Positions 6,625 to 57,326 of a stretch of 62,063 nucleotides of DNA are shown here, piece by piece (within the stretch, counting starts at the first letter, position 1; every line of letters starts with the position of its first letter). The notes under the pieces are model-generated. The model was not told the origin of the DNA. It saw nothing but the letters and a program-made list of their open reading frames with translations, and made no database searches. The position numbers and the translations under genes were made by a program. Origin of the DNA: a virus; the IMG/VR virus record IMGVR_UViG_3300030116_004105, positions 1-62,063 of that record; one strand, 5' to 3'.

Positions 6625-6630
6625 AAGATA

Positions 6631-6915
6631 TTATTTTAAGTCATCTATCTTTTCTTCAAGACGTAGCATATGTCCTTTAATTTCTTTTACATCATCTTGA
6701 GTTGTCATAATAGTTTGACGGATTAATTGATCTTTCATATCATACTCCATGCGGGTAATCTCAGGATCAGGAGGCAGAGGTAATTTTTTAGCCTCTGCTA
6801 TATCTGCTTGCAGTACAAACCATCCACTAATGGCTGCAGCCATTAATACTGCTATACCTGCTAAAGTTTTTAAACTTATATTAAAAGATGTTTCTTCGCT
6901 TAATTCTTTTGCCAT
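6631..6915 (-). CDS. Small membrane protein with coiled coil (94 aa)
   Basis: There is one transmembrane helix (about residues 15-36, TLAGIAVLMAAAISGWFVLQ) followed by a Pro-containing linker (KKLPLPPDPEI) and a charged heptad-like helix to the C-terminus (QDDVKEIKGHMLRLEEKIDD). This plan occurs in phage inner-membrane proteins near lysis genes, including i-spanins, but no lipoprotein partner is visible here. It is 6 bases downstream-spaced from the thioredoxin-fold gene and 2 bases from the beta-barrel gene, so it is co-transcribed with both. Confidence 0.75.
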   Translation of the reverse strand: MAKELSEETSFNISLKTLAGIAVLMAAAISGWFVLQADIAEAKKLPLPPDPEITRMEYDMKDQLIRQTIMTTQDDVKEIKGHMLRLEEKIDDLK

Positions 6916-6917
6916 TT

Positions 6918-8018
6918 TTAAAATATTACATAGTTAAGACCAACGCTAAAGTTGTGCCATTGTCTGTTCCAATACTTATTGTATCTACCTTCTATAAATA
7001 CACCTAAGCTTTTATTAAATCTATATCCATATATTAGTCCTGCTGAATAATCTAACCATTGTTTACCCTTGTAATTATAATAAGAGTATTCATTACCTGT
7101 GTCTACATGGTAAGGCATAAGATTACCCCAGCTGTGAAACCAGAAATCTTTTGTAAAATGATAATAATCAAATCCTAATACTGCAGAGTATTCTACTATA
7201 TTAGATATAGAATTTCTTTGATCTTCTACATAGTCATCTATTACTTGAGGTATAACAACCTCTTCCCACACTTCTTGACTAGTTGCTACTACCTCTCCAT
7301 TGGGTGCTGAATACTGTCCATCTAATGTTATAGTGTATCCCTCTTGAAGTGCCAAGTATGTATAATGTAAAGTCCCATTGTCCAGCACCCAGTCTGCTAA
7401 AGGGTCAAAACCGTATGGTTCTGCAAGCCTTTGAACAGCTCCTAAGTTAAAAGATAATTTACCTGTTTCTCCTATTTGCAATCTAAACCTTTCAGACGCT
7501 TCAAAATATTTTATATCTGCAAATCCGTCTTCTAAGTACTCTACTTTACTTACCCATTTGTCAGCAACGTATCTTACAAAATGATGTTGGTTTGTAAAGT
7601 TAACACCTAAACGGCGTACAAAATCAGCTTCGAATAAATACTCAAAGCCATCGACTCTACCAATTGTGGCTGCATCACTGTATGAATTTTCTGTACCATT
7701 ATAAAAGGTAAGAGCTCTATTTTCATATCCAAATCTTTTTATTTTTCTTATACCTATAGATAATGTGTAATCAAAAGGTGTTTGTACTGTTTGCTCTTCT
7801 AATGTTCCAGAAGTAATAGACCATATTTGATCATCACCTAATGATGTCCCACCATTGACAGCAGCATAAAACGTAGAATATTTAAATATTTTATGTAATC
7901 CTTGAGCATTACAAGAAGGAGCTGCTATAGTAAAAAATATTAAATAAAATAAAACTAGTACTATCCAAAATGATAAGTACGCAACGTCAGGTGTAAAAAA
8001 TTCTTTTAATCTTTTCAT
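6918..8018 (-). CDS. Outer-membrane beta-barrel-like protein (366 aa)
   Basis: The N-terminus has a short charged stretch, then a long hydrophobic segment (residues 14-35) ending CNAQ, which is a signal peptide or anchor. The mature part shows repeated amphipathic strands rich in Tyr, Phe, Trp and Gly, and the C-terminus reads NFSVGLNYVIF, ending in Phe as outer-membrane barrels inserted by BamA do. I infer an outer-membrane barrel rather than a virion protein. It overlaps the T9SS cargo gene by 4 bases (ATGA), so the two envelope proteins are made together. Possible roles are receptor masking or lysis of the outer membrane; neither is shown. Confidence 0.7.
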   Translation of the reverse strand: MKRLKEFFTPDVAYLSFWIVLVLFYLIFFTIAAPSCNAQGLHKIFKYSTFYAAVNGGTSLGDDQIWSITSGTLEEQTVQTPFDYTLSIGIRKIKRFGYENRALTFYNGTENSYSDAATIGRVDGFEYLFEADFVRRLGVNFTNQHHFVRYVADKWVSKVEYLEDGFADIKYFEASERFRLQIGETGKLSFNLGAVQRLAEPYGFDPLADWVLDNGTLHYTYLALQEGYTITLDGQYSAPNGEVVATSQEVWEEVVIPQVIDDYVEDQRNSISNIVEYSAVLGFDYYHFTKDFWFHSWGNLMPYHVDTGNEYSYYNYKGKQWLDYSAGLIYGYRFNKSLGVFIEGRYNKYWNRQWHNFSVGLNYVIF

Positions 8019-21600: not shown

Positions 21601-21878
21601 GTTATGTCGGAAGTAGTATCTGATTTTACAAAACTTAAAGCTATATACTCCCCATATAAAGAGTTGAATAAAAGCTCCCATTGTTTAAATGCATTTTGAA
21701 CTTCAACATCAAATGCATGTTTTGTTATGTATGTATTTGGTAAAACTTTTACATCTTTAAGTGTTGGATGGTCTACCAATAAATTATCAAAATTTTGAAT
21801 AGAATAATTTAAAACAACTGGAGCAACTTCATTAGAAGTTTTACCCTTATTTATTGCGTCTCTTAAAGTAGTTAACAT
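12666..21878 (-). CDS. Giant Cys-rich attachment (tail-fibre-type) protein, 3070 aa
   Basis: Three broad zones are visible. Residues 1-200 have the plan of a matrixin-like zincin (AFKQWELLFNSLYG, SDITISVSN, then LVYNIGLLLRVPRTQKVSPM), but the expected HExGH is Y138-N-I-G-L142, so it would be inactive. Residues about 240-1500 are long, repetitive beta structure with many SPNNxxLYV/I-type turns. Residues about 1520-2300 hold dozens of Cys in short modules (CNCNGAL, CDCEGTV, NECGSC). GC-T/M-D-x-x-A-x-N-Y repeats occur near residue 208 and at about five later sites, the last near the C-terminus, which ends CNAEYCESC. No signal peptide is seen. Size, position after the capsid genes and surface-protein-like modules suggest a host-attachment fibre; this is inference. 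Confidence 0.8.
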   Translation of the reverse strand: MLTTLRDAINKGKTSNEVAPVVLNYSIQNFDNLLVDHPTLKDVKVLPNTYITKHAFDVEVQNAFKQWELLFNSLYGEYIALSFVKSDTTSDITISVSNITSRVQITYGSPAIQLKSGLNWAFTGMPSGKYLLLNYLVYNIGLLLRVPRTQKVSPMNTKFLSTFYPSVSKLTVESDGSINKSILVDYPVIKKGIVNVYGITTGRRPYILGCTDPNATNYNPEATIEGGGCVYEDPRANVTLMMPRIGARYINEPYPEYVLLQPEGYYAIQGGVFGDVDNTLTSISNSSSEPLTLSPSFSDNNSQLTSLVITDKGASEYGDSTGIIRYYVIANNSGDIDIFNHHGARLSGLTSNLINDFNYSLLGSPVEDYLHTSNFKIHYIQNTNNKHLLYWFGSQGELRKIELDDTLQQFTPEGTPVPYCDSDTLMYGNVKSAQMHQYNFAYKDKTSGDYLSVSNDGKVVVNTDVVSGARDGYNPAGSVPGITYFMMQRRLDHYIIGSLTESPSVLQQDDAEYDYDVNIKSFKNFMLPTYTGLVAINLDPFAPIARLFRLMSADNLTHIINYNDFEPNSLDPKLATVFGDSQAPDIVGYMDQDTIANNLGNEVNDTALLHVDENNSNTLSARNTPMDISPQFSSQNGKLLVLRPFSTGFSFQLSKFENTVVNTWSAGSNKFTGGASRYLSIDRYRELPVTIGNKLFYNSYFANPNHVSAQATNIYIPQFPGYTQGFLESYNLSLTETVDNLNHIGDFHLAIAVNHGILLTKINNTNFSIIPPGTEGGLEVHIPGGDPDMANFNGGWSPIAMEFSASDTHLYTIIQNPQDSTDRKIAIYNIHPGGNNTGCVEAAGQSAVTSTVKVVDNVFAGSLERITLQSDGAIYIWSDSGQFHKISSPDLYDSVTAFVDNPEVFEVTTDYLPSSFYRDSILDVARLEFSAQGTDVQNTEDDRRFIYSSIDAFNSSIPVESAGAFVAPILNNFYNSKIIGAGVTYDSISQTVIPNIHDPALLPLSNATQTANGASNDVVLYTYATWGNKLKLYGKNDNELDSSLSYDVPEGTNSPVLTYYKSLDTQNSSFILPLSNQEYFVGFYNKNDHSMVDTNGTYPPLYSYKIVSVAGSINNPEYSVSPRYELLRSAAVSGSALNTFYKIIPGIEIYETENTFKIISTQGFYTSTTTSSSGSVIHEYRITDIYINYLSINKRSLSSASAQGFLASDQSDKQFVHTISDVIANNVHNGKIFTTMRVSRNGLYIAIATSVLHEETFNEITISLFNFNKDSDNRNPLLLGDKIGSTIKLTTNDFLRKEGISPNDPSSIMVDAIVRGMEFSPNNQKLYVLIGQHRQTEDVFSQDSFGTLNDGHASSRLIRIDIDKTNISEPSAFRLDGPVQESESYSSQGALSLYSDLFTFDSDGNSYQGNLVYRANSTMTGLYRSPDNNIFVSLTHPQQIEDEPIIQMTGVITASENTLAARLHKNARVVTLNQVLGVTRDPGGFLANFYGSVGITPISPASTSGTKIDEEDYDEVFEEITNLGAIQFGCMDIAAINYNVNATVNDGSCVYSQDLDTNSNIDLTNLASLDTDGCTDAECPDLGYGWGSASSYNIPNFAEVVEYLDAEFENALFTCQGGGRSDLVSSFLATARSNDYTNFLSAFNVTCFNNINCGCQATYIVEIAVTYEAETDTIIAGPWAGPVGIEEDGAGCNLITVSGTWVFIPITTQENGDGQWTYIDTYPGEPIQPVDPETGEPIINDWCIHVGENPSNFEPVSDFDPTYCQHCLEEDAPFYDQNGGGYTSGDEETYYQWVTSNSDLCGEYGCTDPDACNYNPALDPQMTVQTGCTYSPTDVYPDPYYPDTMIDLGIVCTCNQYLGGDPVFSGSLYGSMYCGSCGADDPSNPNDPDFIFLKKPTCDCDNNPVPYFNSQGQEQGEYCDCEGTVATGAEYGCYCENGVVVEPEQFSNSSICNCNGALASELFGPNCNCDGELDAGGGSFIADQVFCDCNTAATLYYEDVDGNGIPACDIPRRYICEITQEMLVFHPNALAPNVGAYYDIRNGIVISPEDLESEYILSGDLGTAVNYNQCDECATDEGILLQIGETTGITAEDAAEGQQYDCNGECKWKVWSNESIAALLPFVPPGTAPGNIYSNDYYGSGVLNECGSCVPPSEAELPCCEGVTGIFETDLAAGLVDQCNSCIATMFESEGDVPDDGFVSVFLTGPNEYTVTWGGGGSSSESFITSCNPCAEAGSPYGIQPTQQLNAQQWQNIVAAFTPNDCSECGTYPTTFIDYESAAEGFYQVIDGNSTLYKCECDDTPQPLVSFFNQTNENNRCCQGYVWDSCAFGTGGCRPADYTYPDGNPVGHPSQTDCEGNCAEWNGSEWEYEYALNECDDCTLGGVRVGGSLANGDCCEGQSLGCDGLCYITGQQPELDDCGVCWLPEGLEYNACFGCTDSTAVNFDSEATEDDGNCLYASLLTELDAIGIDTTGPSTYVEGNYFIGTQFANLQFINQNPDRFLQYNEFYGANLYYDQPFYTFKCQVIVSAPGAIGSPILQITNPAQNGEIIYGYTPDSPGQEALGAGEPLVYDPSYADVPSFEPGDPNIYSVRYYFRLHAGLNLNTYSIQQIFSQHEDKILSIKAADGSEYIPDPLFNNTIDGIGNLQKGINTSISPVTNPNEVDAQNNPVPPFSTDVYHMYEVIPRLNPVTGHPYEFSIDFTNFITGAVYGCTDQLASNYNPLATVDNGTCTYIEGSFTDDIELIGFPSDPTKLKWVLYNSYGEVLQANFGLYPGTFQQNGYFSSPLPESSCLYFVPIGFKSEDEWKNIVLLINKNSSPISILSYGANIVNPEITSGTQLLSYNSSCKLGCESAVNGRILTDYCITNVKKDVKEFTDIQFTFEVSTTIPSDQLFIAEIYNLDTGKTLFRTSDTEEYVMGQSYINSFPISKETRIGVRFKNTSKFDYKYQLKSEYGEMIINKTYKNSSHTFDTITIRPVVYGCTDPTAANYNSHAAMDDGNCFDAGFEQCVKNSLFSLSLTDCDTKEAERALKIYALYDGYKQAVIENNQTKIDMYIQKLTDMCNAEYCESC

Positions 21879-46308: not shown

Positions 46309-46320
46309 GCTAGCTAATTA

Positions 46321-46349
46321 AGGGATGTACTATGTACATCTCTTTTTTT
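46321..46349 (+). terminator. Rho-independent terminator after the 210-aa gene
   Basis: The stem AGGGATGTAC / GTACATCTCT (46321-46330 with 46334-46343, one G-T pair) with loop TAT is followed by six T. It ends the first right-arm transcript. Confidence 0.92.
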
Positions 46350-46352
46350 AAT

Positions 46353-46426
46353 CTCGCCTTTGACTCCTACTAATCTTTGGAGTGGACGGTGCTTGACAGC
46401 ATATGCTCGCCTTAAACTCCTACTAA
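46353..46426 (+). repeat. Direct repeat, 21 bases, two copies
   Basis: CTCGCCTTTGACTCCTACTA plus A at 46353-46373 recurs as CTCGCCTTAAACTCCTACTA plus A at 46406-46426, with two differences (19 of 21 identical). The copies start 53 bases apart, about five helical turns. Repeats of this type in non-coding DNA can be protein-binding sites such as origin iterons or operators. Confidence 0.85.
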
Positions 46427-46541
46427 AGTATGGTAAGCGTACAAATAGTGACACTCTACGTGACATTGTGGTTACCAACTATCAAACCCAGTAAATCATA
46501 ACAAATCAAATTGTAATCAAACTTATCTGATTATAATATAT

Positions 46542-46657
46542 AGCTAAATTACAATAAGTACAACTTAATGAAAGCCGTGCAATGATGCTCTGTTAAAGAA
46601 CTATATCGGTGAATGTTGTACTTATTTTTCAATAACATTACAGCAAGCTATTTAGCT
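46542..46657 (+). repeat. Nested inverted repeats, long stem-loop
   Basis: A perfect 12-bp inverted repeat AATAAGTACAAC / GTTGTACTTATT (46553-46564 with 46615-46626) encloses 50 bases and is followed by TTT. Outside it AGCTAAAT (46542-46549) pairs with ATTTAGCT (46650-46657). This could be a small RNA with terminator-like 3' end or a cruciform at an origin. Confidence 0.8.
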
Positions 46658-46826
46658 CTTAAGTACAAGGAAGACAAATATAATGCAAAACTTAACATCT
46701 AGAGATGATTCCATAACTAATTGGGTGCGCACTAGGTTTTGTTGGTTTGTGGATACTGTAATGTTTTACAATACAAAATGGGTTGTCCATATCTACACTA
46801 TGGTGGTGTAGGTATTTGAGATTATT

Positions 46827-46864
46827 AAACATGTGGTGAGTTAACCAGCTCATGATACATGTTT
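46827..46864 (+). other. Compound hairpin
   Basis: AAACATGT (46827-46834) pairs with ACATGTTT (46857-46864); inside, TGAG (46837-46840) pairs with CTCA (46849-46852). Chance is less likely because other such structures lie on both sides, but no known RNA family is recognised. Confidence 0.5.
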
Positions 46865-46967
46865 TATAATTGCCTGCAGATAAAATCCCCATTGATACAC
46901 TCATTAACTAATGACAATGAATAAAAAGGCCCAAATGGATGGGACAGTTAGTGGTGTAGGCAAAAAA

Positions 46968-47012
46968 GTTTACTTGTGTCGTAAAGAGTCATGACTTTAC
47001 AATCAAGTAAAC
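46968..47012 (+). other. Two-tier hairpin upstream of the tRNA-like element
   Basis: GTTTACTTG (46968-46976) pairs perfectly with CAAGTAAAC (47004-47012), and inside it GTAAAG (46981-46986) pairs with CTTTAC (46995-47000), leaving the loop AGTCATGA. The two stems are separated by 4- and 3-base internal strands. It starts 57 bases before the tRNA-like element, so both may be parts of one transcript. Confidence 0.75.
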
Positions 47013-47024
47013 TGGGATAGTTAT

Positions 47025-47088
47025 AAAGCATATGGTACAAGCACACTTATGTAATGGTGCTTGGCAGGTTCGATTCCTGCATGCTTTA
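47025..47088 (+). tRNA. tRNA-like element without space for a D-arm (64 nt)
   Basis: AAAGCAT (47025-47031) and ATGCTTT (47081-47087) form a perfect 7-bp acceptor-like stem followed by a discriminator A. A canonical T-arm lies directly before the 3' acceptor strand: GCAGG-TTCGATT-CCTGC (47064-47080). Between the 5' acceptor strand and the T-arm there are only 32 bases. They form a 7-bp stem CAAGCAC/GTGCTTG with a 12-base loop, rather than a D-arm plus a 7-base anticodon loop. No anticodon can be assigned. It may be a decayed tRNA or a tRNA mimic. Confidence 0.5.
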
Positions 47089-47142
47089 CTATGCATAATG
47101 CATAACTCTGAAATCAATTTATTAATTTAAAACAACAGTAAA

Positions 47143-47664
47143 ATGTTAGAAAACAAAACAACAACAGAAGTAAGAGTAGACCAAATTCTTTCAACAGACA
47201 ATGCAGATGTATTTACATTGGTTTTGAGACAAGAAATTAAGAAACCTGAAACATCAGGCGACTTAGGATTCTTTATGCCAGGTATTATAGGCTCAAATCT
47301 TGAGAAGCGTGTTGCATTCCGTAATGTTGATGCTACATTCATTGAGATGTACAATATTTACGAGTCTGAAAATGACAACATCTGTTTCTTTGCAGACCAA
47401 ATTGCTACTGTTACAGATAAGGCAGTAAACTGTAAGATAGTCATCCAAGAAACGCATAACCAAAGAACTTGGGATGGTGGTGAGCAAAAGCCTAAAATAA
47501 ATCCTAAGACAGGTGATGTGTTGACAAAAGACGGTAAACTAATTTATCGTAATACTTGGGTTACATTTGACATGAGTGAAGAAGATACTTATATCGCTCA
47601 CGACAAGGCAACAGTTTCGGCTCCAGCAGCTCAACCTGTAGCAACTGAGGATATACCATTTTAA
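47143..47664 (+). CDS. Putative ssDNA-associated protein with SSB-type C-terminal tip (173 aa)
   Basis: The last residues are ATEDIPF after an Ala/Pro-rich linker (APAAQPVATEDIPF), the same layout as the C-terminus of bacterial SSB, where D-I-P-F recruits replication proteins. The body (residues 1-150) is beta-rich (VDQILSTDNADVFTLVLRQE, KAVNCKIVIQETHNQRTWDG, GKLIYRNTWVTFDMSEEDTY) and compatible with an OB-like fold, but I cannot assign it to the SSB family by sequence. A strong terminator follows 20 bases after the stop. Confidence 0.7.
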   Translation: MLENKTTTEVRVDQILSTDNADVFTLVLRQEIKKPETSGDLGFFMPGIIGSNLEKRVAFRNVDATFIEMYNIYESENDNICFFADQIATVTDKAVNCKIVIQETHNQRTWDGGEQKPKINPKTGDVLTKDGKLIYRNTWVTFDMSEEDTYIAHDKATVSAPAAQPVATEDIPF

Positions 47665-47684
47665 TCCTCCCCTTAATTAGCTAT

Positions 47685-47716
47685 GAATAGGCAGTATATC
47701 ACTGCCTATTCTTTTT
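47685..47716 (+). terminator. Rho-independent terminator after the 173-aa gene
   Basis: GAATAGGCAG (47685-47694) pairs perfectly with CTGCCTATTC (47702-47711), loop of seven, followed by TTTTT. It separates this gene from the polymerase operon. Confidence 0.92.
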
Positions 47717-47724
47717 ATTAACTT

Positions 47725-47985
47725 ATGATTCTTAGTAAAATGACAACTTTAAACTTAATTTTAGTTCTTGTAGCTGTTGGTTTATCAGCTTATAATACTC
47801 TATCAATGTTAGCAATGAATGATAGAATAAACAGTAATGAATATGGCATCAAAGAGTGTGCTTCACGCACAACAAGAAATGCCACTGGTATTAATACTAT
47901 AGAGGTTGCAGTGCGACACATAGAAAATGCTGTAAGAAAGAAGAAAGCAGGCAGACCAAAGAAGAAAACAGATGGAAAGCAATAA
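47725..47985 (+). CDS. Membrane-anchored AT-hook protein (86 aa)
   Basis: An N-terminal transmembrane helix (MTTLNLILVLVAVGLSAYNT) precedes a soluble helical stretch and a basic C-terminus RKKKAGRPKKKTDGKQ. This carries the G-R-P core flanked by Lys that defines an AT-hook for minor-groove binding of AT-rich DNA. The second ATG (47740) gives a cleaner start at the hydrophobic helix. The combination suggests tethering of the AT-rich phage genome to the membrane; inferred. It overlaps the next gene by 14 bases. Confidence 0.7.
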   Translation: MILSKMTTLNLILVLVAVGLSAYNTLSMLAMNDRINSNEYGIKECASRTTRNATGINTIEVAVRHIENAVRKKKAGRPKKKTDGKQ

Positions 47986-48265
47986 AGAGTTTATAACTCG
48001 TATGGTATTACTTATCAATGAGTTACCAGAAGATAAGAAGCGTGATTATTTCACGCTTCTTTCTTTTCTTGGCTTTCAACTAAGTATGAGAGATAACTTG
48101 TTTATTACAGAATTATTTGATAAACTTGATCTCCATTTACTAAATAAAATCGATTGGTATGGTAGAGCAAAACTCAAACAAGAAATTAGACAAGCGCTTA
48201 GAGATTTCTGTAAAGCAAGTCAAAATTCTTTCACGTTTCATGACAATCACAAAGAAATTGTCTAA
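47972..48265 (+). CDS. Small helical protein (97 aa), function unknown
   Basis: Predominantly helical and charged: MESNKEFITRMVLLINELPE, LLSFLGFQLSMRDNLFITEL and RAKLKQEIRQALRDFCKASQ. There is no membrane span. It lies between the AT-hook protein and DNA polymerase in a tightly overlapping gene string, so a role in replication is possible. No family is recognised. Confidence 0.65.
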   Translation: MESNKEFITRMVLLINELPEDKKRDYFTLLSFLGFQLSMRDNLFITELFDKLDLHLLNKIDWYGRAKLKQEIRQALRDFCKASQNSFTFHDNHKEIV

Positions 48266-48350
48266 TAAATACTGGACAGTAAGACAGATAGATAAGATAT
48301 TAAGAATACTAAATCAAGATCTCAATGATAAAATTCGTAGGAAATCCTAG
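48240..48350 (+). CDS. Tiny basic protein (36 aa) overlapping both neighbours
   Basis: The frame reads MTITKKLSNKYWTVRQIDKI, then LRILNQDLNDKIRRKS. It covers the 59-base gap before DNA polymerase and overlaps each neighbour by 26 bases. The composition is coherent and helical, but size and overlaps leave real doubt. Confidence 0.4.
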   Translation: MTITKKLSNKYWTVRQIDKILRILNQDLNDKIRRKS

Positions 48351-50202
48351 ACTACTACCTTGCTGTAAAGATGCAACTATATATGATGTAGTAGACTATT
48401 GTAAAACTAAAGAAGTTCTTGCAATAGATACTGAGACAACAGGTTTAAATCATGTGGAGGATAAAATGATTATGCTTCAGATTGGTGATAACTACACTCA
48501 ATTTATTATTGATGTTAGATGCATAGATATATCTCCTCTTAAAAGTATTCTTGAAGATAAAAGCATAGTTAAAATACTACACAATGTTAAGTTTGACTAT
48601 AAGTTTATTCTTAATTATAACATAAGACTTAATAATGTGTGGGATACTATGCTAATGTCACAGGTTATACATTGTGGTAAGGATTTATCTCATAGTCTAG
48701 ATAGTGTACTTAGTAGAACACTACAAATAGATATGGATAAGACTACAAGATCTAGTTTTATAAACAGAGGTAGCGATGAATTTACTGAGTCTGAGATAAT
48801 GTACGGTGCTAAAGATATTGAATATCTTATACAATTGTATGACAATCAACAAGATACATGTTTTAGACTAGATCTTACAAAGACAGCAGAACTTGAGAAC
48901 AAAGCTTCGCTAGCTTATGCAGACATCGAGTACAATGGTATTGGTTTGGATAAAGATAACTGGCTTAAGCTTGCAAAGAAAGCAGCTTACAAGGTTAAAA
49001 GTATGTGTGATGTACTTGATACATACATAGAATCTAATCCAAAACTTAATAAGTTTGTAGATGACTATATACAAGGTGATTTATTTATGGATGTCTCACA
49101 GTTAAGAAAAGTGAATGTAAAATGGTCATCACCAAAACAAGTGTTGGATGTATTTAATACATATGGATTGAAGATAAAAGATGTAAATGCTAAAAATTTA
49201 CACGTGCATAGTAAGAATGATTTTGTCAAAACATATATTAAGTACAAAGAACAAGCCAAACTGGCTACTAGTTATGGTGATAAGTTCCTTGAGAATGTAG
49301 ATAGTGACGGTAGAATCCGTACAAACTTCAAGCAAATACTAAATACAGGTAGGGTTGCATCAGGTAAACCTAATATGCAACAGATACCTGCACACAATGA
49401 CTATCGTAACTGCTTTGTAAGTGGTTATGATGATTGGGTATTTGTATCAGGCGACTACAGCTCACAGGAGCTATGTATTATAGCCACAGGGAGTAAAGAT
49501 CCCGTGTGGATTAAGGCGTTGGAAGATGGAGAAGATCTTCATAGCGTGTGTGCAGATTTAGTTTATGGTAGAGAGTGGTATGAAGCTGCTGAAGAGGACT
49601 GTGCTTATTTTGTAGGCGATGCCAAACAAAAATGCAATTGTCCTAAACATAAAAAGCTGCGCACAAATGTAAAGAGTATAAACTTTGGTTTAGCCTATGG
49701 TATGGGCCCACACAAACTAGCTGATACATTGCTTATTAGTATGAATCAAGCAGAGAAATTGATACAGAAATACTTTACAGCATTTCCTGCAATCAAAAAT
49801 TTTCTAGACTCTCTTGGTAATTATGGTAAGCAACATGGACATATTAAAACATATGCACCATATCGTCGTATCAGATGGTTTGATAAATGGGACGGTGATG
49901 ATACAGATGAGATTGTAATGGGTAAGATAGAGCGTGCTAGCAAAAACACACCTATACAAGGTAGTGGTGCCGACATGTGTAAGTCTGCACTTGTTATGGT
50001 TCGTGATCATATACATTACAACAACTTACCTGTTAAACTAGTGATGACAGTCCATGATCAGATTGATACTATTGTACACAAAAGCTACGCAGACACGTGG
50101 AAGTACACATTGCAAGACATCATGGAGACATCAACTCTAGATATTATACCATCAGGACTATTAAAAGCAGAAACAGAAATATCAACAGTATGGAAGAAGT
50201 AA
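48325..50202 (+). CDS. polA: DNA polymerase, family A, with 3'-5' exonuclease domain
   Basis: The 625-aa protein has a DnaQ-like exonuclease domain at the N-terminus: ExoI AIDTETTGLN (residues 33-42), ExoII HNVKFDYKFI, ExoIII YGAKDIEYLIQLYD. The family A polymerase domain follows: GRVASGKPNMQQIPAHNDYR, motif A SGDYSSQELCIIA (about 375-387), motif B RTNVKSINFGLAYGMG (about 445-460) and motif C MTVHDQID (about 573-580). It has no 5'-3' exonuclease domain. The motif B aromatic (K-S-I-N-F) corresponds to E. coli Phe762, the form usual in virulent phages. Motif A has Cys where Arg is usual (E-L-C instead of E-L-R). The helicase gene begins 13 bases before the stop. Confidence 0.93.
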   Translation: MIKFVGNPRLLPCCKDATIYDVVDYCKTKEVLAIDTETTGLNHVEDKMIMLQIGDNYTQFIIDVRCIDISPLKSILEDKSIVKILHNVKFDYKFILNYNIRLNNVWDTMLMSQVIHCGKDLSHSLDSVLSRTLQIDMDKTTRSSFINRGSDEFTESEIMYGAKDIEYLIQLYDNQQDTCFRLDLTKTAELENKASLAYADIEYNGIGLDKDNWLKLAKKAAYKVKSMCDVLDTYIESNPKLNKFVDDYIQGDLFMDVSQLRKVNVKWSSPKQVLDVFNTYGLKIKDVNAKNLHVHSKNDFVKTYIKYKEQAKLATSYGDKFLENVDSDGRIRTNFKQILNTGRVASGKPNMQQIPAHNDYRNCFVSGYDDWVFVSGDYSSQELCIIATGSKDPVWIKALEDGEDLHSVCADLVYGREWYEAAEEDCAYFVGDAKQKCNCPKHKKLRTNVKSINFGLAYGMGPHKLADTLLISMNQAEKLIQKYFTAFPAIKNFLDSLGNYGKQHGHIKTYAPYRRIRWFDKWDGDDTDEIVMGKIERASKNTPIQGSGADMCKSALVMVRDHIHYNNLPVKLVMTVHDQIDTIVHKSYADTWKYTLQDIMETSTLDIIPSGLLKAETEISTVWKK

Positions 50203-51368
50203 GTAACAGGACCGAAAGACAGCTAGAAATTGTTCAGAAGTTTGCGGACAATAAAGGTAGAGGTACACTGCTAGCTGCTACAGGTTTCGGTAAAACATTT
50301 ACAGCTATAATGGTTATACTTAGGATGCTTAAATCTAGGCCTAAGTGTAAGATTATAGTTGTAGTGCCTACAATTAATCTTAAGAATCAATGGGCTAAAG
50401 AGCTCAAGAGATACAAGGCCCACAAGAATTGTGAAGTTCTTGTTATCAATACTGCATACAAGACAGAAGCTACGTGCGATCTTCTTATATGCGATGAGAT
50501 ACATGCTTACGGTGCAGAGCAGTTCATTAAAGTATTTGATAAGATCAAGTATGAATATATTTTTGGTCTTACAGCTACTATTGAGCGCTCAGATGGTATG
50601 CATGAAATACTACTTGAGTATGCACCTGTGATTGATGAAGTGCCTATCGATGAGTGTCACGCAAATGGCTGGGTTAGTGATTACCTTGTGTACAATCTAT
50701 CCGTGCCTATGTATGATGACGAGCAAGAAGCATATGATAAAGCCAATAAGAAGTTTAGATATGCTGCAGGTAGGCTAGGCTTTGGTGGCTCTAGTTCTTT
50801 CAACAATGCTAAGTCATTGCTGAGAGATAAGAGTGCTGCACCAGAGCAGAGACAAGTTGCTGCTATCTATTACAACTCTATGCGTGAGCGTGGTGATATA
50901 TGCAAGAACTCTCAAGCTAAGATACCTGTTATCAAACAGTTGCTTGAGAAGTTTGAAGATCGTAAGGCTCTACTATTCAGTGCATCTACTAAGTTTGCTG
51001 ATGATGTGCAAGAAGAGCTTGGTGATGTGTGTCTTAGTTTTCACAGTAAGCGTACCAAGAAAGAGCAGACAGAGATACTCAAGAAGTTCAAAGACGGTCG
51101 TACAAAGCAGCGTGTAATCAGCAGTGTCAAAGCTCTGAATGCAGGCTTCGATGTACCTGATTGTTCTCTTGGTATTGTGGCTGCAGGTAATTCTAAGAAA
51201 CTAGATAACATACAGCGTACAGGCCGTATTATTCGGTATGTACCAGGTAAGACAGCAATTATTATTAATCTCTATGCACCTAACACGCAGGAAGTATCTT
51301 GGCTTAACAAACGTCAAGAAGGGCAGACTGTAACATGGGTGGATAGTATAGATGAGATTACAGTGTAA
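50190..51368 (+). CDS. SF2 DNA/RNA helicase (392 aa)
   Basis: The start at ATG 50190 (MEEVSNRTERQLEIVQKFAD) overlaps the polymerase stop by 13 bases; an ATG at 50097 in the same frame lies inside the polymerase gene and would add an unrelated tail. Motifs in order: I AATGFGKTF (about residue 29), Ia VVVPTINLKNQW, II CDEIHAYG (about 100), III GLTATIERSDG, and the second domain with LFSASTKFADDVQEE, V LNAGFDVPD and VI QRTGRIIRY (about 341). It resembles UvsW/RadD-type helicases that act in recombination or fork repair. Confidence 0.9.
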   Translation: MEEVSNRTERQLEIVQKFADNKGRGTLLAATGFGKTFTAIMVILRMLKSRPKCKIIVVVPTINLKNQWAKELKRYKAHKNCEVLVINTAYKTEATCDLLICDEIHAYGAEQFIKVFDKIKYEYIFGLTATIERSDGMHEILLEYAPVIDEVPIDECHANGWVSDYLVYNLSVPMYDDEQEAYDKANKKFRYAAGRLGFGGSSSFNNAKSLLRDKSAAPEQRQVAAIYYNSMRERGDICKNSQAKIPVIKQLLEKFEDRKALLFSASTKFADDVQEELGDVCLSFHSKRTKKEQTEILKKFKDGRTKQRVISSVKALNAGFDVPDCSLGIVAAGNSKKLDNIQRTGRIIRYVPGKTAIIINLYAPNTQEVSWLNKRQEGQTVTWVDSIDEITV

Positions 51369-51454
51369 ATTAGGCATGAGTGATTAACGGTTAAACTCTA
51401 ATCATCCCAGATACCGAGCGCGAGACTGCGATACCAAACCTGGGAGCCTATTTT
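51367..51454 (+). ncRNA. Predicted three-way-junction RNA between helicase and small genes
   Basis: The outer stem AAATTAGGC/GCCTATTTT (51367-51375 with 51446-51454, one mismatch) encloses arm 1 GTGATTA/TAATCAT (51380-51386 with 51399-51405, one G-T pair) and arm 2 CCCAG/CTGGG (51406-51410 with 51440-51444). An alternative pairing GAGT/ACTC with TTAA/TTAA can form inside arm 1. The outer stem includes the helicase stop codon. It matches no riboswitch or ribozyme I recognise. Confidence 0.55.
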
Positions 51455-51490
51455 CTACGTGAGCAAGCTACGTGAACGCTGCTTCATTTT

Positions 51491-51552
51491 TAATTAGGGG
51501 GGATAAGATCTTTAATGCGTTCGTCTGCAGTTATGCTTTGAACCCCTAATTA
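51491..51552 (+). other. Long stem-loop ahead of the tiny membrane gene
   Basis: TAATTAGGGG (51491-51500) pairs perfectly over 10 bp with CCCCTAATTA (51543-51552), enclosing 42 bases. Between it and the three-way junction an 8-base direct repeat CTACGTGA occurs at 51455-51462 and 51468-51475. The stem is not followed by a T-run, so it is not a normal terminator. It ends 19 bases before the next ATG and may control its translation. Confidence 0.6.
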
Positions 51553-51571
51553 TTAATTAAAAATTTATAAT

Positions 51572-51664
51572 ATGTATTTAGAAATATTTTTAGGTGTTAT
51601 ATGCGCTATAGCATTCTATATAACTTGGCAAATTGTTAAACATAATAAAACTTTAAAGAAATAA
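51572..51664 (+). CDS. Tiny single-helix membrane protein (30 aa)
   Basis: The frame reads MYLEIFLGVICAIAFYITWQ, then IVKHNKTLKK: one transmembrane helix and a basic tail, positive end probably inside. Its stop overlaps the next ATG (TAATG), as in other coupled genes here. Function unknown. Confidence 0.55.
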   Translation: MYLEIFLGVICAIAFYITWQIVKHNKTLKK

Positions 51665-51834
51665 TGACACAGGAAGAATTAGAAATTATTGCTACTTTAC
51701 AAGCACAAATGCAAAGAATGCAAAATCTTATGGGACAGCTTATAGATAAAGTAACATCACTTGAAGCAGCTAATAATGTACAAAATTTTGTAAATGAAGT
51801 AAATTCAAATACTACAACTAATGACACTAAATGA
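51664..51834 (+). CDS. Small coiled-coil protein (56 aa)
   Basis: It begins MTQEELEIIATLQAQMQRMQ and continues NLMGQLIDKVTSLEAANNVQ, a clean heptad pattern, and ends in an Asn/Thr-rich tail. The start is coupled to the tiny membrane gene; the end overlaps the next gene by 14 bases. Probably an oligomeric small protein; no family. Confidence 0.55.
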   Translation: MTQEELEIIATLQAQMQRMQNLMGQLIDKVTSLEAANNVQNFVNEVNSNTTTNDTK

Positions 51835-52030
51835 AGATCAAATAACGGCACTTGTCCATATTATTTTATATTTGCATGAAGAAGAACGTGCAGATCAAGA
51901 AGAATGTGGGTGTGAAGATCACATGTTTTTCAATGTAGATAAGTTAAAAGATGCCTTACAGGATAACGGTATAGACATGGATAACGAACTTAAGATGTTT
52001 AACGAAGTCACCTACGATGATGAAACATGA
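51821..52030 (+). CDS. Small acidic protein (69 aa)
   Basis: A strongly acidic helical protein: MTLNEDQITALVHIILYLHE, then EERADQEECGCEDHMFFNVD and KLKDALQDNGIDMDNELKMF. C-G-C with a nearby H could bind metal. It overlaps the next gene by 4 bases (ATGA). Function unknown. Confidence 0.65.
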   Translation: MTLNEDQITALVHIILYLHEEERADQEECGCEDHMFFNVDKLKDALQDNGIDMDNELKMFNEVTYDDET

Positions 52031-52275
52031 AAAGAGAATACTTAGATTATAAACCTCTTATAAAACAAGAGAAGAAAGTAAAAGAAAATAAAAGTAATGT
52101 TTGTCCCTTTACAGGATTAAAACACCCTGAAGGAACTAAATTTGTTGAAGAAGACATATTTAAACTTATGTTTGGGTTTGATTACCCTAAATCATACATA
52201 AAAAATCATTACGTAGAAACAATTAGATACCCTAAAAACGACGGAAGCAATGGCAAAAACAGTAGATTTCGCTGA
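52027..52275 (+). CDS. Small basic protein (82 aa)
   Basis: A Lys/Glu-rich start (KREYLDYKPLIKQEKKVKEN) precedes SNVCPFTGLKHPEGTKFVEE and a Phe/Tyr-rich segment. It overlaps the DUF932-like gene by 26 bases. No recognised family; possibly a nucleic-acid-associated protein. Confidence 0.6.
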   Translation: MKREYLDYKPLIKQEKKVKENKSNVCPFTGLKHPEGTKFVEEDIFKLMFGFDYPKSYIKNHYVETIRYPKNDGSNGKNSRFR

Positions 52276-52993
52276 GTTGGGCTTGATAAAAGTCCCTGAG
52301 AAAACAGAGACTTACATACCAGTAAGTCACCAAGAATTATACACAAGAATTAAAGAAGCAGGTACAAAGCATTACAATACCTCACCTTTTGAAGAGAAAC
52401 TAGAAGTAAATCATAGAGGCCAACAAATGTTTGGTAGTATGACATTTCATGATGGCTCTCAGTTATCAGGTAGCGGTATGAATAGGAGTATTGGCTTTCG
52501 TAATTCTTACGACAAGACATTACCTATAGGTGTATGCGGCGGAGCATCAGTAGTTGTATGCTCTAACCTTATGTTTACAGGTGATATTATTAAAATGCGT
52601 AAACACACACAGAATGTAGAAGAAGATTTAGATATTCTTATACAAAAGTTATTTGATGACGTAGATCGTCGTTACTATGATTCTGTTGCAGCTAAAGGTG
52701 TTATGGAAGAAATAGAATTTAGCGATAGAGACACAGCTAATTATTTAGGACAATTATTTGTAAATGAAGGTGTTTTAAATGGTGCACAGTTAAACAAAGC
52801 AACTAAAGAATGGTTTGAATCTCCTGTATTTAAAGAGCGTACAGCATGGTCTGCATATAATGCATGCACTGAAGCACTCAAAGCTGCACACCCTATGAAC
52901 GCTTTGGAAAAATACACTAAATTACATACATTTACCAAAGAGTTTATATTAGATCCTTATGTTGAAATGACTAATGAGGATTTACCGTTTTAA
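52250..52993 (+). CDS. DUF932-like protein with SSB-type C-terminal tip (247 aa)
   Basis: The central part SGSGMNRSIGFRNSYDKTLP and GVCGGASVVVCSNLMFTGD is the signature of the DUF932 family of phage and plasmid proteins (R-N-S-Y-D ... G ... V-C-S-N). The C-terminal half is helical (DLDILIQKLFDDVDRRYYDS). It ends MTNEDLPF, an acidic tip like that of Bacteroidetes SSB. DUF932 proteins lie near replication or recombination genes, function unsettled. The tip suggests binding to the same partners as SSB. Confidence 0.75.
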   Translation: MAKTVDFAELGLIKVPEKTETYIPVSHQELYTRIKEAGTKHYNTSPFEEKLEVNHRGQQMFGSMTFHDGSQLSGSGMNRSIGFRNSYDKTLPIGVCGGASVVVCSNLMFTGDIIKMRKHTQNVEEDLDILIQKLFDDVDRRYYDSVAAKGVMEEIEFSDRDTANYLGQLFVNEGVLNGAQLNKATKEWFESPVFKERTAWSAYNACTEALKAAHPMNALEKYTKLHTFTKEFILDPYVEMTNEDLPF

Positions 52994-53002
52994 TATTAAT
53001 GT

Positions 53003-53230
53003 ATGAAGAAGAGTCCTTATGCAGGCAAAGAAGTTAATCTTGCAGAAATTAGACATTTATATAATGTCTTAAAATTTTATTATGAGGACTTAAATGATCT
53101 TAGTATGGATGCTATTACAGATATAATACGTATGGAATTTGGTTGCAAAGTGACCAAAAATGATGTATATTTATATCTATTTACTGCACAATATTGGGAC
53201 AATGAAGGTAATTTATTGTGTCATGAATAA
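53003..53230 (+). CDS. Small helical protein (75 aa)
   Basis: It reads MKKSPYAGKEVNLAEIRHLY with a later ITDIIRMEFGCKVTKNDVYL, suggestive of a helix-turn-helix (two short helices with a Gly-containing turn). It overlaps the next gene by 8 bases. DNA binding is only a suggestion. Confidence 0.6.
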   Translation: MKKSPYAGKEVNLAEIRHLYNVLKFYYEDLNDLSMDAITDIIRMEFGCKVTKNDVYLYLFTAQYWDNEGNLLCHE

Positions 53231-53423
53231 TTGTATTGAGTGCAGTAATGAATTAAGATGTTTATCAGATGATGCGCTGATGAATTTAAATGAAGAGGAA
53301 CTAGATAAATATTTAAACTGCGATGAAAGTGTCTTTAAACTTAACCAAGTTGAAAGGCAACAAACTTACACCCAGCGAGTTCGTTTACATGCTCTTGAAA
53401 AGCGAGAGCAAGAAACAGCTTGA
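53223..53423 (+). CDS. Small Cys-containing protein (66 aa)
   Basis: The start ATG 53223 gives MNNCIECSNELRCLSDDALM, with C-x-x-C and a third Cys, followed by a charged helix (NQVERQQTYTQRVRLHALEK). An upstream ATG at 53160 would lie inside the previous gene. The last 101 bases overlap the 179-aa gene in another frame, which is unusual; both frames have coherent composition. Confidence 0.5.
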   Translation: MNNCIECSNELRCLSDDALMNLNEEELDKYLNCDESVFKLNQVERQQTYTQRVRLHALEKREQETA

Positions 53424-53862
53424 CAAGTACCTAGAAATCTTACCTATAGACGAAGAAAAACTACAGAAGCGTGGCTTTATTAAAATAATGCCCGACGACT
53501 CTCTTACGCTCCGTCAAAAGGCACTAGATTTATTTACAGTACGAGGTTGTGAGGATTGTTGGAATCAATTTGTTATTGCCTATCCTATGAAGGATCAAGG
53601 CAGACCTCTACACAATGATATGAAACGTAATAAACTTAAGTACATAGCATTGATAGAAAAAAATCCAGACTTACATGATACTATAATAAAGGCTATTACA
53701 GCTGAACTAGAAGATAGAAAACGTGCAAGCTGGTCTGGTGAGTTCCGCCCAAGATGGAAGATGATGTCATCATATTTAAACCAAGAAGCTTGGACTATGT
53801 ATGATGGTATTGAGCCAGAAGAATCCACTGATGAACAAATGTATGGAGGAGATTTAATATGA
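53323..53862 (+). CDS. Replication-module protein (179 aa), function unknown
   Basis: It begins MKVSLNLTKLKGNKLTPSEF and has VYMLLKSESKKQLDKYLEIL, then RGCEDCWNQFVIAYPMKDQG and a Trp-rich end (RPRWKMMSSYLNQEAWTMYD). The helical, charged pattern with a winged-helix-like first part (LTPSEFVYMLLK) recalls phage replisome accessory proteins, and it precedes the DnaB-like helicase with a 4-base overlap. A helicase-loader role is possible, from position only. Confidence 0.7.
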   Translation: MKVSLNLTKLKGNKLTPSEFVYMLLKSESKKQLDKYLEILPIDEEKLQKRGFIKIMPDDSLTLRQKALDLFTVRGCEDCWNQFVIAYPMKDQGRPLHNDMKRNKLKYIALIEKNPDLHDTIIKAITAELEDRKRASWSGEFRPRWKMMSSYLNQEAWTMYDGIEPEESTDEQMYGGDLI

Positions 53863-54824
53863 GTGATGATGTAAAAGCATTACCTTGGCGTCACATCTCT
53901 CAATCATCTAATGCTGCACTACGGTATATAGATGGTAGAAGAAAAGGTGATATTAAATCTCTAACTACACCCTGGAAAAAGTTTAATACTATATCCATGG
54001 GAGGTATCGAGTGGCAGACTATCACAACTATTGCTGGTATGTCTGGTAGTGGTAAAACTGCAGTTCTTGGTCAGTTAGAAACCGGGTTAAAAGATTTAAA
54101 CCCTGACGAAGATTTTGCAATACTGTCATTTAACTTTGAGATGTTATCCTCAAGGCTTGTAGCCCGCAAGCTTAGTAATAAGATGAAAATTACTACACAG
54201 CAGTTGTATAGTGCGTCTGAGACATTTAGTCTTAATGACAATTACTATATGAATGCAGTAAAGGAAGCTCGTAAGTTGAATGAATATGATATATACTATG
54301 TCGATGTGCCTGGTAGTGTCAAATCTTTAGAAGCTACAGTACTAAAGTTTTCTAAAGAGATGGCTAAACCGGTGGTTGTCATGTTAGATCATACTTTACT
54401 TGTAAAGAAGGCAGGTGGTGCGCAAGATAGAGATCTTCTCTATGATTTGATGGCTATGTTTAATGGTTTGAAGAAACAAATTAAGGTATCTTTTATCTTA
54501 ATATCTCAGATGAACCGTAACATAGAAGCATCAGAACGCATACAGAACCCTGATTTACATTACCCTAAAAAGCAGGATATATTTGGTGCAGATGCATGTT
54601 ATATGTACTCAGATATTGTAGTGGTTACACACAGACCCGAGATGCTTGGAATTAGGGCGTACGGCCCAAAGAGGTGGCCCACAGATAATGCTATATTCTG
54701 GCACTATCTAAAGGTGCGTGAGGGTGAGCCTTGCATAGCCTTGATGGAAAACAATCTGGCTCATAATCAGATTGTAGATGCAAAACCTATTTATTCAACT
54801 AAAAACAAAAAAGAAAATGAGTGA
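53859..54824 (+). CDS. DnaB-like replicative helicase, RecA-fold domain only (321 aa)
   Basis: The ATPase core is visible: Walker A TIAGMSGSGKTAVL (about residues 55-68), then FAILSFNFEMLSSRLVARKL like the 'lfsLEM....l..R' motif of DnaB, a Walker B-like PVVVMLDHTLLVKK (about 170-183), the FILISQMNR sensor strand and a C-terminal HYLKVREGEPCIA arginine region. The DnaB N-terminal domain is missing, as in several phage replicative helicases. With the polymerase and primase it makes up the fork machinery. Confidence 0.85.
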   Translation: MSDDVKALPWRHISQSSNAALRYIDGRRKGDIKSLTTPWKKFNTISMGGIEWQTITTIAGMSGSGKTAVLGQLETGLKDLNPDEDFAILSFNFEMLSSRLVARKLSNKMKITTQQLYSASETFSLNDNYYMNAVKEARKLNEYDIYYVDVPGSVKSLEATVLKFSKEMAKPVVVMLDHTLLVKKAGGAQDRDLLYDLMAMFNGLKKQIKVSFILISQMNRNIEASERIQNPDLHYPKKQDIFGADACYMYSDIVVVTHRPEMLGIRAYGPKRWPTDNAIFWHYLKVREGEPCIALMENNLAHNQIVDAKPIYSTKNKKENE

Positions 54825-54987
54825 TGAACCAATTGTGTGGGGTTGGGAAGAACCCACATACCAACGTAGTAAAGATCATAGAGAGTATCTTATAAAAAAG
54901 TATAATAAAGATAAACCTGAAGATCAACATGTGCATACTATTGAAGAATTAAATAATGCAATAAAAAAAGAAAGAGAGAATAAGTAA
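54817..54987 (+). CDS. Small charged protein (56 aa)
   Basis: The start ATG 54817 (MSDEPIVWGWEEPTYQRSKD) overlaps the helicase stop by 8 bases; the in-frame ATG at 54778 lies deeper inside the helicase. The rest is a charged helix ending KKERENK. It shares its final base with the next start (TAATG). Possibly a helicase or ATPase partner; no family. Confidence 0.6.
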   Translation: MSDEPIVWGWEEPTYQRSKDHREYLIKKYNKDKPEDQHVHTIEELNNAIKKERENK

Positions 54988-55664
54988 TGGCACAAGAAGT
55001 ATTAATAGTTGGAGCAAGTGGGACAGGGAAATCCACTTCAATAGAAAACCTAAACCCTGAGTCTACATTCATTGTAAACGTGGCACGTAAAGCACTGCCA
55101 TTCAAAGGATGGAAGACTAAGTATCCTACATTCAACAAAGAAAATCCTGACGGTAGATTCTATTCTAGTGATGTACCACAAGAGATTCTTAAATGTTTGA
55201 ATTACATTAATGACAACCGTCCTGAGATAAAGACAATTGTTGTTGATGATTATCAATACACTATGGCAAACGAGTATATGCGTAGAGCTAACGAAACTGG
55301 TTTCAAGAAGTTTACTGAGATTGCTCAGAACGCTTGGTCTATAATCAATGCAGTTAAGTCTATGCGTGACGATTTGCTTGTAGTATTTATGATGCACTCA
55401 GAAGTTACATTCGATGCTCACGGTAATAAAGTTACCAAGGCTAAGACTATCGGTAAGATGATGGATAACGTTGTAACACTTGAGGGTATGTTTACTATTG
55501 TATTGTATACAGATGTCACGAAGAGTGAAACAGGTATGGAGTATGCATTCATTACACAAAATGATGGTACTAATACTGGTAAATCTCCAAAGGATATGTT
55601 TGGATCTGTTAAAATACCAAACGATTTAGCAATGGTAGCAAAGGCTATCGAAGATTATCAATAA
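54987..55664 (+). CDS. Sak4-like single-strand annealing / RecA-fold ATPase (225 aa)
   Basis: The Walker A motif GASGTGKST occurs at residues 8-16. It is followed by NVARKALPFKGWKTKY, a Walker B strand IKTIVVDDYQYTMANEYM and FMMHSEVTFDAHGNKVTKAK for the later motifs. This is the short AAA_24/Sak4 ATPase plan found in phages. Sak4 proteins act as recombinases that need a cognate SSB, and an SSB-like gene follows 28 bases later, which supports the assignment. Confidence 0.8.
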   Translation: MAQEVLIVGASGTGKSTSIENLNPESTFIVNVARKALPFKGWKTKYPTFNKENPDGRFYSSDVPQEILKCLNYINDNRPEIKTIVVDDYQYTMANEYMRRANETGFKKFTEIAQNAWSIINAVKSMRDDLLVVFMMHSEVTFDAHGNKVTKAKTIGKMMDNVVTLEGMFTIVLYTDVTKSETGMEYAFITQNDGTNTGKSPKDMFGSVKIPNDLAMVAKAIEDYQ

Positions 55665-55692
55665 GTAATAATTAATTTAAAAAGAGAGACAA

Positions 55693-56253
55693 ATGTACGG
55701 AAGTAATGTCGAAAGTAACAGTACTGGTGGAGTATCACCAGAGGTAGGTATCGTAGAAAATTGCGAACTAGTAAGTGTAACAATGAACACAGATAAAGGT
55801 GGTAGACTTGACTTTGAGTTCAAGCAGCCAAATGGTGCAACAGTTAAGCATGCAGAGTTCCCTGCTAATCCAGACTATGGTGATGTAGAGAAACAAGCTA
55901 CAGATGTATCACGTCGTGTAAAGCATATTGCTACTAAGTTTATGCCTGAATCAGAGTTTGTGATTACAGATGTAAGTAGCTTTGAAGAGTATGGCCACAA
56001 GGTTACAAGCTTGTTCGGTCAAAAATTCTTGGGTAGAAAATTCAGAATGCTATTTATCTACAAAGGTAAGTATGTATCTCTACCTAAGTATCCTAACTTT
56101 ATTGAAGGTATGGAGACAACTGCAGATAAGACTAACATCTATATCTCAGACTACAACAAGAAGAAGCTTGTTAAGCCTGAACCAGATGCAAGTCCAGTGA
56201 CTGCTGCAGCTATGGCTACTACAACAACTAATGGATCTGACATGCCATTCTGA
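55693..56253 (+). CDS. SSB-like protein (186 aa) with DMPF tip
   Basis: A beta-rich N-terminal two thirds (ENCELVSVTMNTDKGGRLDF, EFVITDVSSFEEYGHKVTSL, KFRMLFIYKGKYVSLPKYPN) is followed by a low-complexity linker (VTAAAMATTTTNGSDMPF) ending D-M-P-F. A folded domain plus disordered linker plus D-x-P-F is the architecture of single-stranded DNA-binding proteins. Its place directly after the Sak4-like ATPase fits a recombinase/SSB pair. The next ATG overlaps the stop (TGATG). Confidence 0.78.
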   Translation: MYGSNVESNSTGGVSPEVGIVENCELVSVTMNTDKGGRLDFEFKQPNGATVKHAEFPANPDYGDVEKQATDVSRRVKHIATKFMPESEFVITDVSSFEEYGHKVTSLFGQKFLGRKFRMLFIYKGKYVSLPKYPNFIEGMETTADKTNIYISDYNKKKLVKPEPDASPVTAAAMATTTTNGSDMPF

Positions 56254-57326
56254 TGTATGGTAGCAGAGTAGTAGAACTTAGTGATGAGGAGATTCTAGGC
56301 AGAATTAACTGCCTAGACATCTACTCATACTACATAGGTAAAGATTTTAAATATGGGAGGGCTATGTGCTCTCCTTTACGTAAAGATAAATCTCCTTCTT
56401 TTACTATCTTCAAACATAATAGTGGTAAGTATTTTTTCAAAGACTTTAGTACTGGTGAGACAGGTGACTGTTTTACTTTTCTTACTAAACTCTTTGGGTT
56501 GAAACGGTTTGATACATACAAACTTGTAGATAATGACTTTCAGCTTGGAATATCTACTACTAGTTTTTCTACCCCTACAAGACAGTATGTTGGTGAGCGG
56601 GTAAAAGAGTTACAAGATATAGAACCATCTACTACTACTATACAAATTAAATCTCGTTCCTGGAATGCGCAGGAAGATAAAAATTTCTGGTCTAAATATG
56701 GAATATGTTGTAACATCCTTAATAAATTTCACGTCCGACCCGCAGAACACGTGTGGGTTAATGATCGTCTTATTGTTAGCGCTAATCGTTACAATCCGAT
56801 ATACGCTTATGATTTTGGGCAAGGACGAATGAAAATATATCAGCCTAATAGCAAATATAAATGGCTTAGTAATACTAGTGCATCAGACTTACAAGGTCTG
56901 AGTCAACTGCCTGATGGCGGAAACACACTAGTAATTACTAAATCATTGAAAGATGTTATGTGTTTGAGTATATGGGATATACCTGCGGTGGCGCCATCGT
57001 CAGAGAGTTGTGTCATTCCTGCAGATGTTGTTAAGAATTTATATGACAGATTTGCACGAATATATATATTGTATGACTTTGATCGCACTGGAATATCTTT
57101 TGCTAATAAGCATAGGAAGTTGTATGGATTTATACCGTTATTTTTTACTAATGGAAAATTTAATACCTTTGACTACAAAGCAAAAGATCTGTCAGACTTT
57201 ATTGCCAACAATGGCCTTAGAGCAGCTGCAGAGTTAATCGAGTACACATGCCAAGAGGGATATTCATACCAGGAAACGTACCGTCAAGCAAGAACGGTAG
57301 AAGATGGACGGGAAGATACTTTATAG
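56253..57326 (+). CDS. DnaG-like primase with altered Toprim motif (357 aa)
   Basis: The N-terminal zinc-binding-like region has RAMCSPLRKDKSPSFTIFKH and KDFSTGETGDCFTFLTKLFG, equivalent to the DnaG 'CPFH.EkTPSF ... GD...F' pattern, though only two Cys are retained. A Toprim domain follows: NTLVITKSLKDVMCLSIWDI, where the usual catalytic Glu is Lys, and the D-x-D motif in IYILYDFDRTGISFANKH. It makes RNA primers for lagging-strand synthesis. The last 79 bases overlap the RusA gene in another frame. Confidence 0.83.
   Translation: MYGSRVVELSDEEILGRINCLDIYSYYIGKDFKYGRAMCSPLRKDKSPSFTIFKHNSGKYFFKDFSTGETGDCFTFLTKLFGLKRFDTYKLVDNDFQLGISTTSFSTPTRQYVGERVKELQDIEPSTTTIQIKSRSWNAQEDKNFWSKYGICCNILNKFHVRPAEHVWVNDRLIVSANRYNPIYAYDFGQGRMKIYQPNSKYKWLSNTSASDLQGLSQLPDGGNTLVITKSLKDVMCLSIWDIPAVAPSSESCVIPADVVKNLYDRFARIYILYDFDRTGISFANKHRKLYGFIPLFFTNGKFNTFDYKAKDLSDFIANNGLRAAAELIEYTCQEGYSYQETYRQARTVEDGREDTL

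Follow-up and report, generated by a model that had tools for sequence, protein, structure and literature searches.

Three proteins encoded in the replication module of a crAss-like phage end in a tip of the type found at the C-terminus of bacterial single-stranded DNA-binding protein (SSB), and two of the three are not SSBs. The sequence analysed, referred to here as the window, covers positions 1–62,063 of the 95,981-bp IMG/VR virus record IMGVR_UViG_3300030116_004105. On its plus strand, an open reading frame (ORF) of 173 aa at 47143–47664 ends in VATEDIPF, a 247-aa ORF of the DUF932 family at 52250–52993 ends in MTNEDLPF, and a 186-aa ORF at 55693–56253 ends in NGSDMPF. In each, terminal Pro-Phe follows a hydrophobic residue and one or more acidic residues. 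An initial annotation of the DNA had pointed out these endings (EDIPF, EDLPF and SDMPF) and likened them to the SSB tip, and both the endings and the likeness were confirmed. We consider it probable, at roughly 0.6, that the tip of the 186-aa protein, a candidate phage SSB, docks the phage Sak4 annealing protein together with host partners, and that the tips of the other two proteins are recent grafts.

The frequency of the tip was determined in a greedy set of 82 ORFs covering the whole record (30,488 residues; a few of the ORFs are doubtful). The motif [DE][ILMV]PF had exactly three occurrences, all of them forming the last four residues of a protein, and there was no internal copy. Composition predicts 0.0039 C-terminal occurrences (Poisson P(≥3) about 1e-8), on a null model that takes no account of any special composition of C-termini. 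A control set was drawn from 45 other phage loci and comprised 850 distinct ORFs. In it the strict tip was found 15 times, always on members of the SSB family, and a relaxed form, [DENGSTA][ILMVA]PF, was found 24 times, on 23 SSB family proteins and one primase. Strict tips on proteins other than SSB numbered two among 81 ORFs here and none among approximately 827 control ORFs (Fisher p = 0.008). The tip is usual on SSB and rare on other proteins, and two non-SSB tips in one phage are unusual. The proteome expectation and the 850-ORF control together rule out chance as the source of all three tips. All three occurred together in four genomes, the window included. A literature search, covering open-licence papers only, found no phage protein other than SSB that mimics the SSB C-terminal tip (SSB-Ct). 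The one relaxed tip outside the SSB family in the control set is KNIPF, at the end of the primase of Bacteroides phage DAC15 (L115:13986-15005).

To follow the tip of the 186-aa protein, viral contigs were scanned with this protein, yielding 66 loci; 63 of these, together with the window, provided a set of 64 full-length close members. MPF forms the last three residues in every one of the 64, preceded by Glu in 44 and Asp in 20. Tails of 25 aa came in 32 different sequences in this set. Two codons of the tip (S-D-M-P-F, window 56236–56250, plus strand) vary synonymously, the Pro codon being CCA in 28 members and CCG in 36, and the Phe codon TTC in 54 and TTT in 10. In our alignment (A6) the last two columns were 100% identical against a tail average of 18%, so that the tip is far more conserved than the linker. 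Two distant orthologues (L067 and L150) end in DDLPF, and all four named orthologues from gut Suoliviridae end in LPF (NPYGLPF, DPNGLPF, TSQDLPF and QNDDLPF). Among gut-type loci, 23 of 24 end in PF and the remaining one has an early stop. The profiles of marine and gut members matched each other with 99% probability (E 3e-18), and the gene order Sak4-SSB-primase is common to gut crAss-like phages, with two further genes in between in cr125_1. One gut-member query matched 33 records, four without annotation and 29 annotated, all 29 as "hypothetical protein". The SSB tip is ordinary in kind, though the gene that carries it is mostly unannotated. A "putative ssb" of p-crAssphage is already in print (PMC6962324), so that a crAss-like SSB has been proposed before; our protein comes from a crAss-like phage too and is likened to it by name alone. 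A term search of the main text of a large survey of crAss-like phages (PMC7886860) did not find the word SSB.

The AlphaFold2 (AF2) model of the 186-aa protein has a mean predicted local distance difference test score (pLDDT) of 79, and most of the tail (residues 167–184) scores below 50. In a Foldseek search with this model the top three rows were all PrgE, a plasmid single-stranded DNA (ssDNA)-binding protein with an oligonucleotide/oligosaccharide-binding (OB) fold. VIA-align gave Z-scores of 7.2–8.0 to PrgE and to the C-terminal domain of RadD, and no more than 4.2 in later rows. The two matches agree with each other, because RadD is the best DALI hit of PrgE itself according to PMC11137577. 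PrgE of plasmid pCF10 and the RadD domain are the nearest folds, aligned over 103–110 residues at 5–15% identity. Unlike for the 186-aa protein, no tip is described for PrgE: the main text of that paper lacks the words tip, acidic and C-terminal tail. As in bacterial SSB (PF00436; SSB-Ct as described in PMC10164576), a disordered linker leads to a tip of the D-x-PF type; unlike bacterial SSB, the protein has no PF00436 match and a different OB-like core. From its place between Sak4 and primase, its model, fold matches, disordered tail and tip conservation, the 186-aa protein is very probably the phage's own SSB; the structural support for this is good but not decisive. The initial annotation had called all three tip-bearing proteins replication proteins; real evidence for such a role was found for this one and not for the other two.

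The gene immediately 5′ of the SSB candidate encodes a Sak4-like ssDNA annealing protein (54987–55664, plus strand; phrog_2872, E 1e-71) and ends 28 bp upstream of it. The same pair is present in phage HK620, where, as set out in sections of PMC5928155, the SSB gene (hkaK) adjoins that of Sak4 (hkaL). There the last six residues of SSB, NDYPPF, are required both for the binding of Sak4 to SSB-coated ssDNA and for the stimulation of annealing. Matched pairing of this kind, between Sak or Sak4 and the SSB encoded next to it, is also described for staphylococcal phages. The window Sak4 is 41% identical to that of HK620 over 224 residues. The gene following a related Sak4 in six phages, HK620 included, was always of SSB size, and its product ended in PF in four of them, in LNF in another and in PFD in the last. 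As in HK620, the window SSB gene lies directly downstream of Sak4 and its product has an acidic tip ending in Phe; unlike HK620, the window phage carries the tip on two further proteins. Since the same Sak4-SSB gene pair is present here, the HK620 precedent for Sak4 recruitment is relevant, and this precedent, the identity of the two Sak4 proteins, the adjacent genes and the PF ends in related pairs led us to take Sak4 as the likely first partner of the tip.

In phage SSBs of the T7 gp2.5 type, the acidic tail has been proposed to cover the protein's own DNA-binding face. A tip acting in cis in this manner, and released on ssDNA, would be in keeping with two statements in PMC5928155, that E. 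coli SSB shows weak binding of the tail to its DNA site and that HK620 SSB binds Sak4 only when on ssDNA. We regard it as distinctly improbable here, as the tail of the SSB candidate, whose last 20 residues include a single Asp and no Glu, lacks a strongly acidic character and the tip on the DUF932 protein would be left unexplained.

The host fields of named crAss-like relatives give Bacteroidota, among them Cellulophaga and Bacteroides. The probable host class was taken as that of a genome titled Flavobacteriales, the class name being inferred, and 34 SSB ORFs were collected, 30 of them from 198 genomes drawn from the class and the other four from three starting genomes. These were taken from the best-scoring loci, a choice that may favour typical SSBs, and 33 of the 34 end in DLPF; the other ends in ...DPLPFEDEKIVN. 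In one host-class SSB (L204) the tip is internal and is followed by EDEKIVN. The closeness of the host endings to the phage tips bears on the interpretation offered with the initial annotation, that the three tips could compete with host SSB and reroute its partners to phage DNA. Taken as their chief role, this would involve partners such as PriA, RecO and RecG. In published descriptions, SSB-Ct is a common docking element for many E. coli partners, which favours the same interpretation. The tested phage precedent, HK620, targets the phage's own Sak4, however, and two of the three tips are limited to small clades, so that rerouting of host partners would not be a general need of these phages. 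Rerouting as the chief role seems unlikely. The initial interpretation is partly supported: the tips are real and resemble those of host-class SSBs, and host proteins may be among the partners of the SSB tip in our preferred reading.

The 247-aa DUF932 protein (PF06067, 29.1 bits against a cut-off of 23) has a clade-specific tail ending in NEDLPF. It was said initially that an acidic or low-complexity stretch precedes each tip; the DUF932 tail is not low-complexity. Phage relatives numbered 44 distinct proteins, window included, of which 39 were closed at the C-terminus; LPF is the ending of 17 of these and LLF of one, and the remaining 21 carry other tails. On a tree of 39 chosen rows, built from the protein body alone, the tip rows fell into a single clade of 17 rows (Shimodaira–Hasegawa-like approximate likelihood ratio test support 99), with the tip in 16 and LLF as the exception. 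On this tree the tip was gained once, in one marine clade, and within the clade it is far more conserved than the linker. Cellular relatives lack it: the tip was present in none of 27 closed DUF932 relatives from bacterial genome contigs, one of which (L175) is phage-like. The Leu and Phe of the tip were kept in 18 of 18 proteins with synonymous change, and the Pro in 17 of 18; variation was seen at positions −4 to −6. This suggests, and does not prove, that the tip is under selection, because the whole protein is conserved. When the three tip proteins were compared with named phages by tblastn, one weak DUF932 match was obtained and nothing else.

The 173-aa protein belongs to a family without a name. 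Library scans gave no convincing family match (best PHROG E 0.078), and searches of solved structures with profiles of all three families (186-aa, DUF932 and 173-aa) gave nothing usable. Its AF2 model is beta-rich, with a mean pLDDT of 72 and a disordered tail (residues 157–173 below 50) ending in TEDIPF. Matches to OB folds were weak (Foldseek E 0.29 or worse; VIA-align Z no higher than 4.8, to mixed barrels), and the protein is possibly OB-like. Homology with the 186-aa SSB candidate was considered and is unsupported (hhalign probability 0.2), in line with the original view that the tip proteins are unrelated, which held where sequences were compared. The tip is present in the window and three other contigs, and in the wider family 3 of the 33 loci inspected have it; other relatives end in DDLNS, DDLSA, DDLTV, DGLMG and other sequences. 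A tree of the protein body confined the tip to a clade of five rows, with one loss. In this family the tip is not far more conserved than the linker. Conservation of the tip among homologues, put forward initially as a check, thus held for the SSB candidate (64 of 64), in part for the DUF932 protein (17 of 39 closed) and not for the 173-aa protein (3 of 33 plus the window). Because the tips of the DUF932 and 173-aa proteins are each restricted to a small clade, a single ancestral three-tip state in all relatives is ruled out.

Several observations weigh against the preferred reading. The best Foldseek E-value for the 186-aa model was only 0.03, and a Z-score of 8 may reflect a common arrangement. 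Pfam, PHROGs and NCBIfam name no SSB family for the 186-aa protein, and the Pfam SSB profile (PF00436) matches nothing in the record. Comparison with HK620-type SSBs (phrog_743) gave an hhalign probability of 16% (E 0.0016), a hint, and the PHROGs scan gave no phrog_743 match. The genes at the corresponding place in the Steigviridae phi14:2, cr128_1 and DAC15, compared by place alone, lack the tip (DWSNLS, DSPWF and WPWAK); all three phages have Sak4. As to the other two proteins, acidic residues are gone from some DUF932 tips (HQSLPF), and a relative 81% identical to the 173-aa protein has lost the tip (TVIPH). The four 173-aa tips show no synonymous change at the I-P-F codons; their identity needs no explanation beyond recent common descent, and selection on this tip is therefore not demonstrated.

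In a rival reading the SSB tip alone would work, the DUF932 and 173-aa tips being chance or neutral endings. Their narrow distribution is in favour of this, as are the loss of the tip in one relative (L072), its change to LLF in another (L038), and the 173-aa relatives that end in DDLNS or DDLSA, two residues from a tip. Both tips are nevertheless exactly C-terminal in a proteome with no internal copy, no strict tip was found on the non-SSB control ORFs, and the DUF932 Leu and Phe were kept through synonymous change while the residues before them varied. Neutral endings are possible and, on balance, doubtful.

In the reading that we prefer, the 186-aa protein would have an OB-like core that binds ssDNA, joined by a flexible linker to a docking tip at the C-terminus, the counterpart of SSB-Ct in bacteria, and its main job would probably be to keep partners on phage ssDNA. 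The first partner would likely be Sak4, encoded just upstream, as in HK620, and further partners would likely be host proteins that interact with SSB and have a pocket for DDLPF. Later, one marine sub-lineage may have added the tip to the DUF932 tail, and a still smaller group to the 173-aa protein. The grafted tips would most likely let these two proteins use the same pockets, on Sak4 or on host proteins, and so bring both to the replication fork or allow them to share partners with SSB.

The assignment of the phage rests on head and packaging genes, which match PHROGs (TerL phrog_6681, portal phrog_6547, major capsid protein phrog_11589). Its TerL is closest among isolates to that of Cellulophaga phage phi14:2 (Crassvirales), at 38% identity, and by its Crassvirales capsid and packaging genes the phage is classed as crAss-like. 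A megablast search of the phage collection found no near relative of the replication region. The plus-strand replication module comprises the 173-aa protein, a family A DNA polymerase (PolA; 48325–50202, PF00476), a superfamily 2 helicase, the DUF932 protein, a DnaB-like helicase (53859–54824; phrog_19, PF03796), Sak4, the 186-aa protein and a DnaG-family primase (56253–57326; phrog_12622, E 3e-45), a conserved neighbour directly 3′ of the 186-aa gene. Between DnaB and Sak4, relatives encode a protein of 98–107 aa (for example L006:8804-9127) that ends in EINLF or DLNLF in more than 20 of them; the 69-aa ORF at this place in the window (54778–54987) lacks such an ending. We take the ending to resemble a clamp-binding motif, or another tip with terminal Phe.

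The 834 bp before the module (46309–47142) have no plausible plus-strand genes and hold a 12-bp perfect inverted repeat (46553–46626) and a 28-nt direct repeat; an origin or regulatory region is possible. Just 5′ of the 173-aa gene, 47024–47088 (plus strand) can form a tRNA-like fold without a clear D arm (−23.1 kcal/mol, z −2.1). It gave a sub-threshold match to tRNA-Sec and no tRNA with ARAGORN, and its T-arm sequence was found again in 14 fetched loci. A 3.3-kb stretch occurs twice in the record, at 5416–8747 in the window and at record positions 92719–95981, with 85.7% DNA identity; the second copy reaches the record end, and either a block of about six genes was duplicated and then diverged, or the assembly broke at a repeat. 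The record also contains an ORF of 3,070 aa (12666–21878) and, past the window end, a minus-strand ORF of 4,898 aa (64194–78890).

What is of interest in these results is the presence of clade-limited tips, of putative function, on two proteins that are not SSBs. They raise the possibility that phages attach the docking tip of SSB to further replication proteins, and trees would allow the gains and losses of such grafts to be followed. A bolder proposal, which we hold tentatively and think rather improbable, is that this lineage spread a host-type tip over unrelated proteins of the module, so that the SSB, the DUF932 protein and the possibly OB-like 173-aa protein would act as a multivalent set, together keeping Sak4 and host replication and repair proteins on phage DNA and depriving host SSB of partners. 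If this were true, the tip would be a module that can move between proteins and has been gained repeatedly, and its host-matched sequence could be deduced from genome data. For the SSB candidate itself, the analysis offers a name and a likely partner for a "hypothetical protein" gene in a very abundant phage order.

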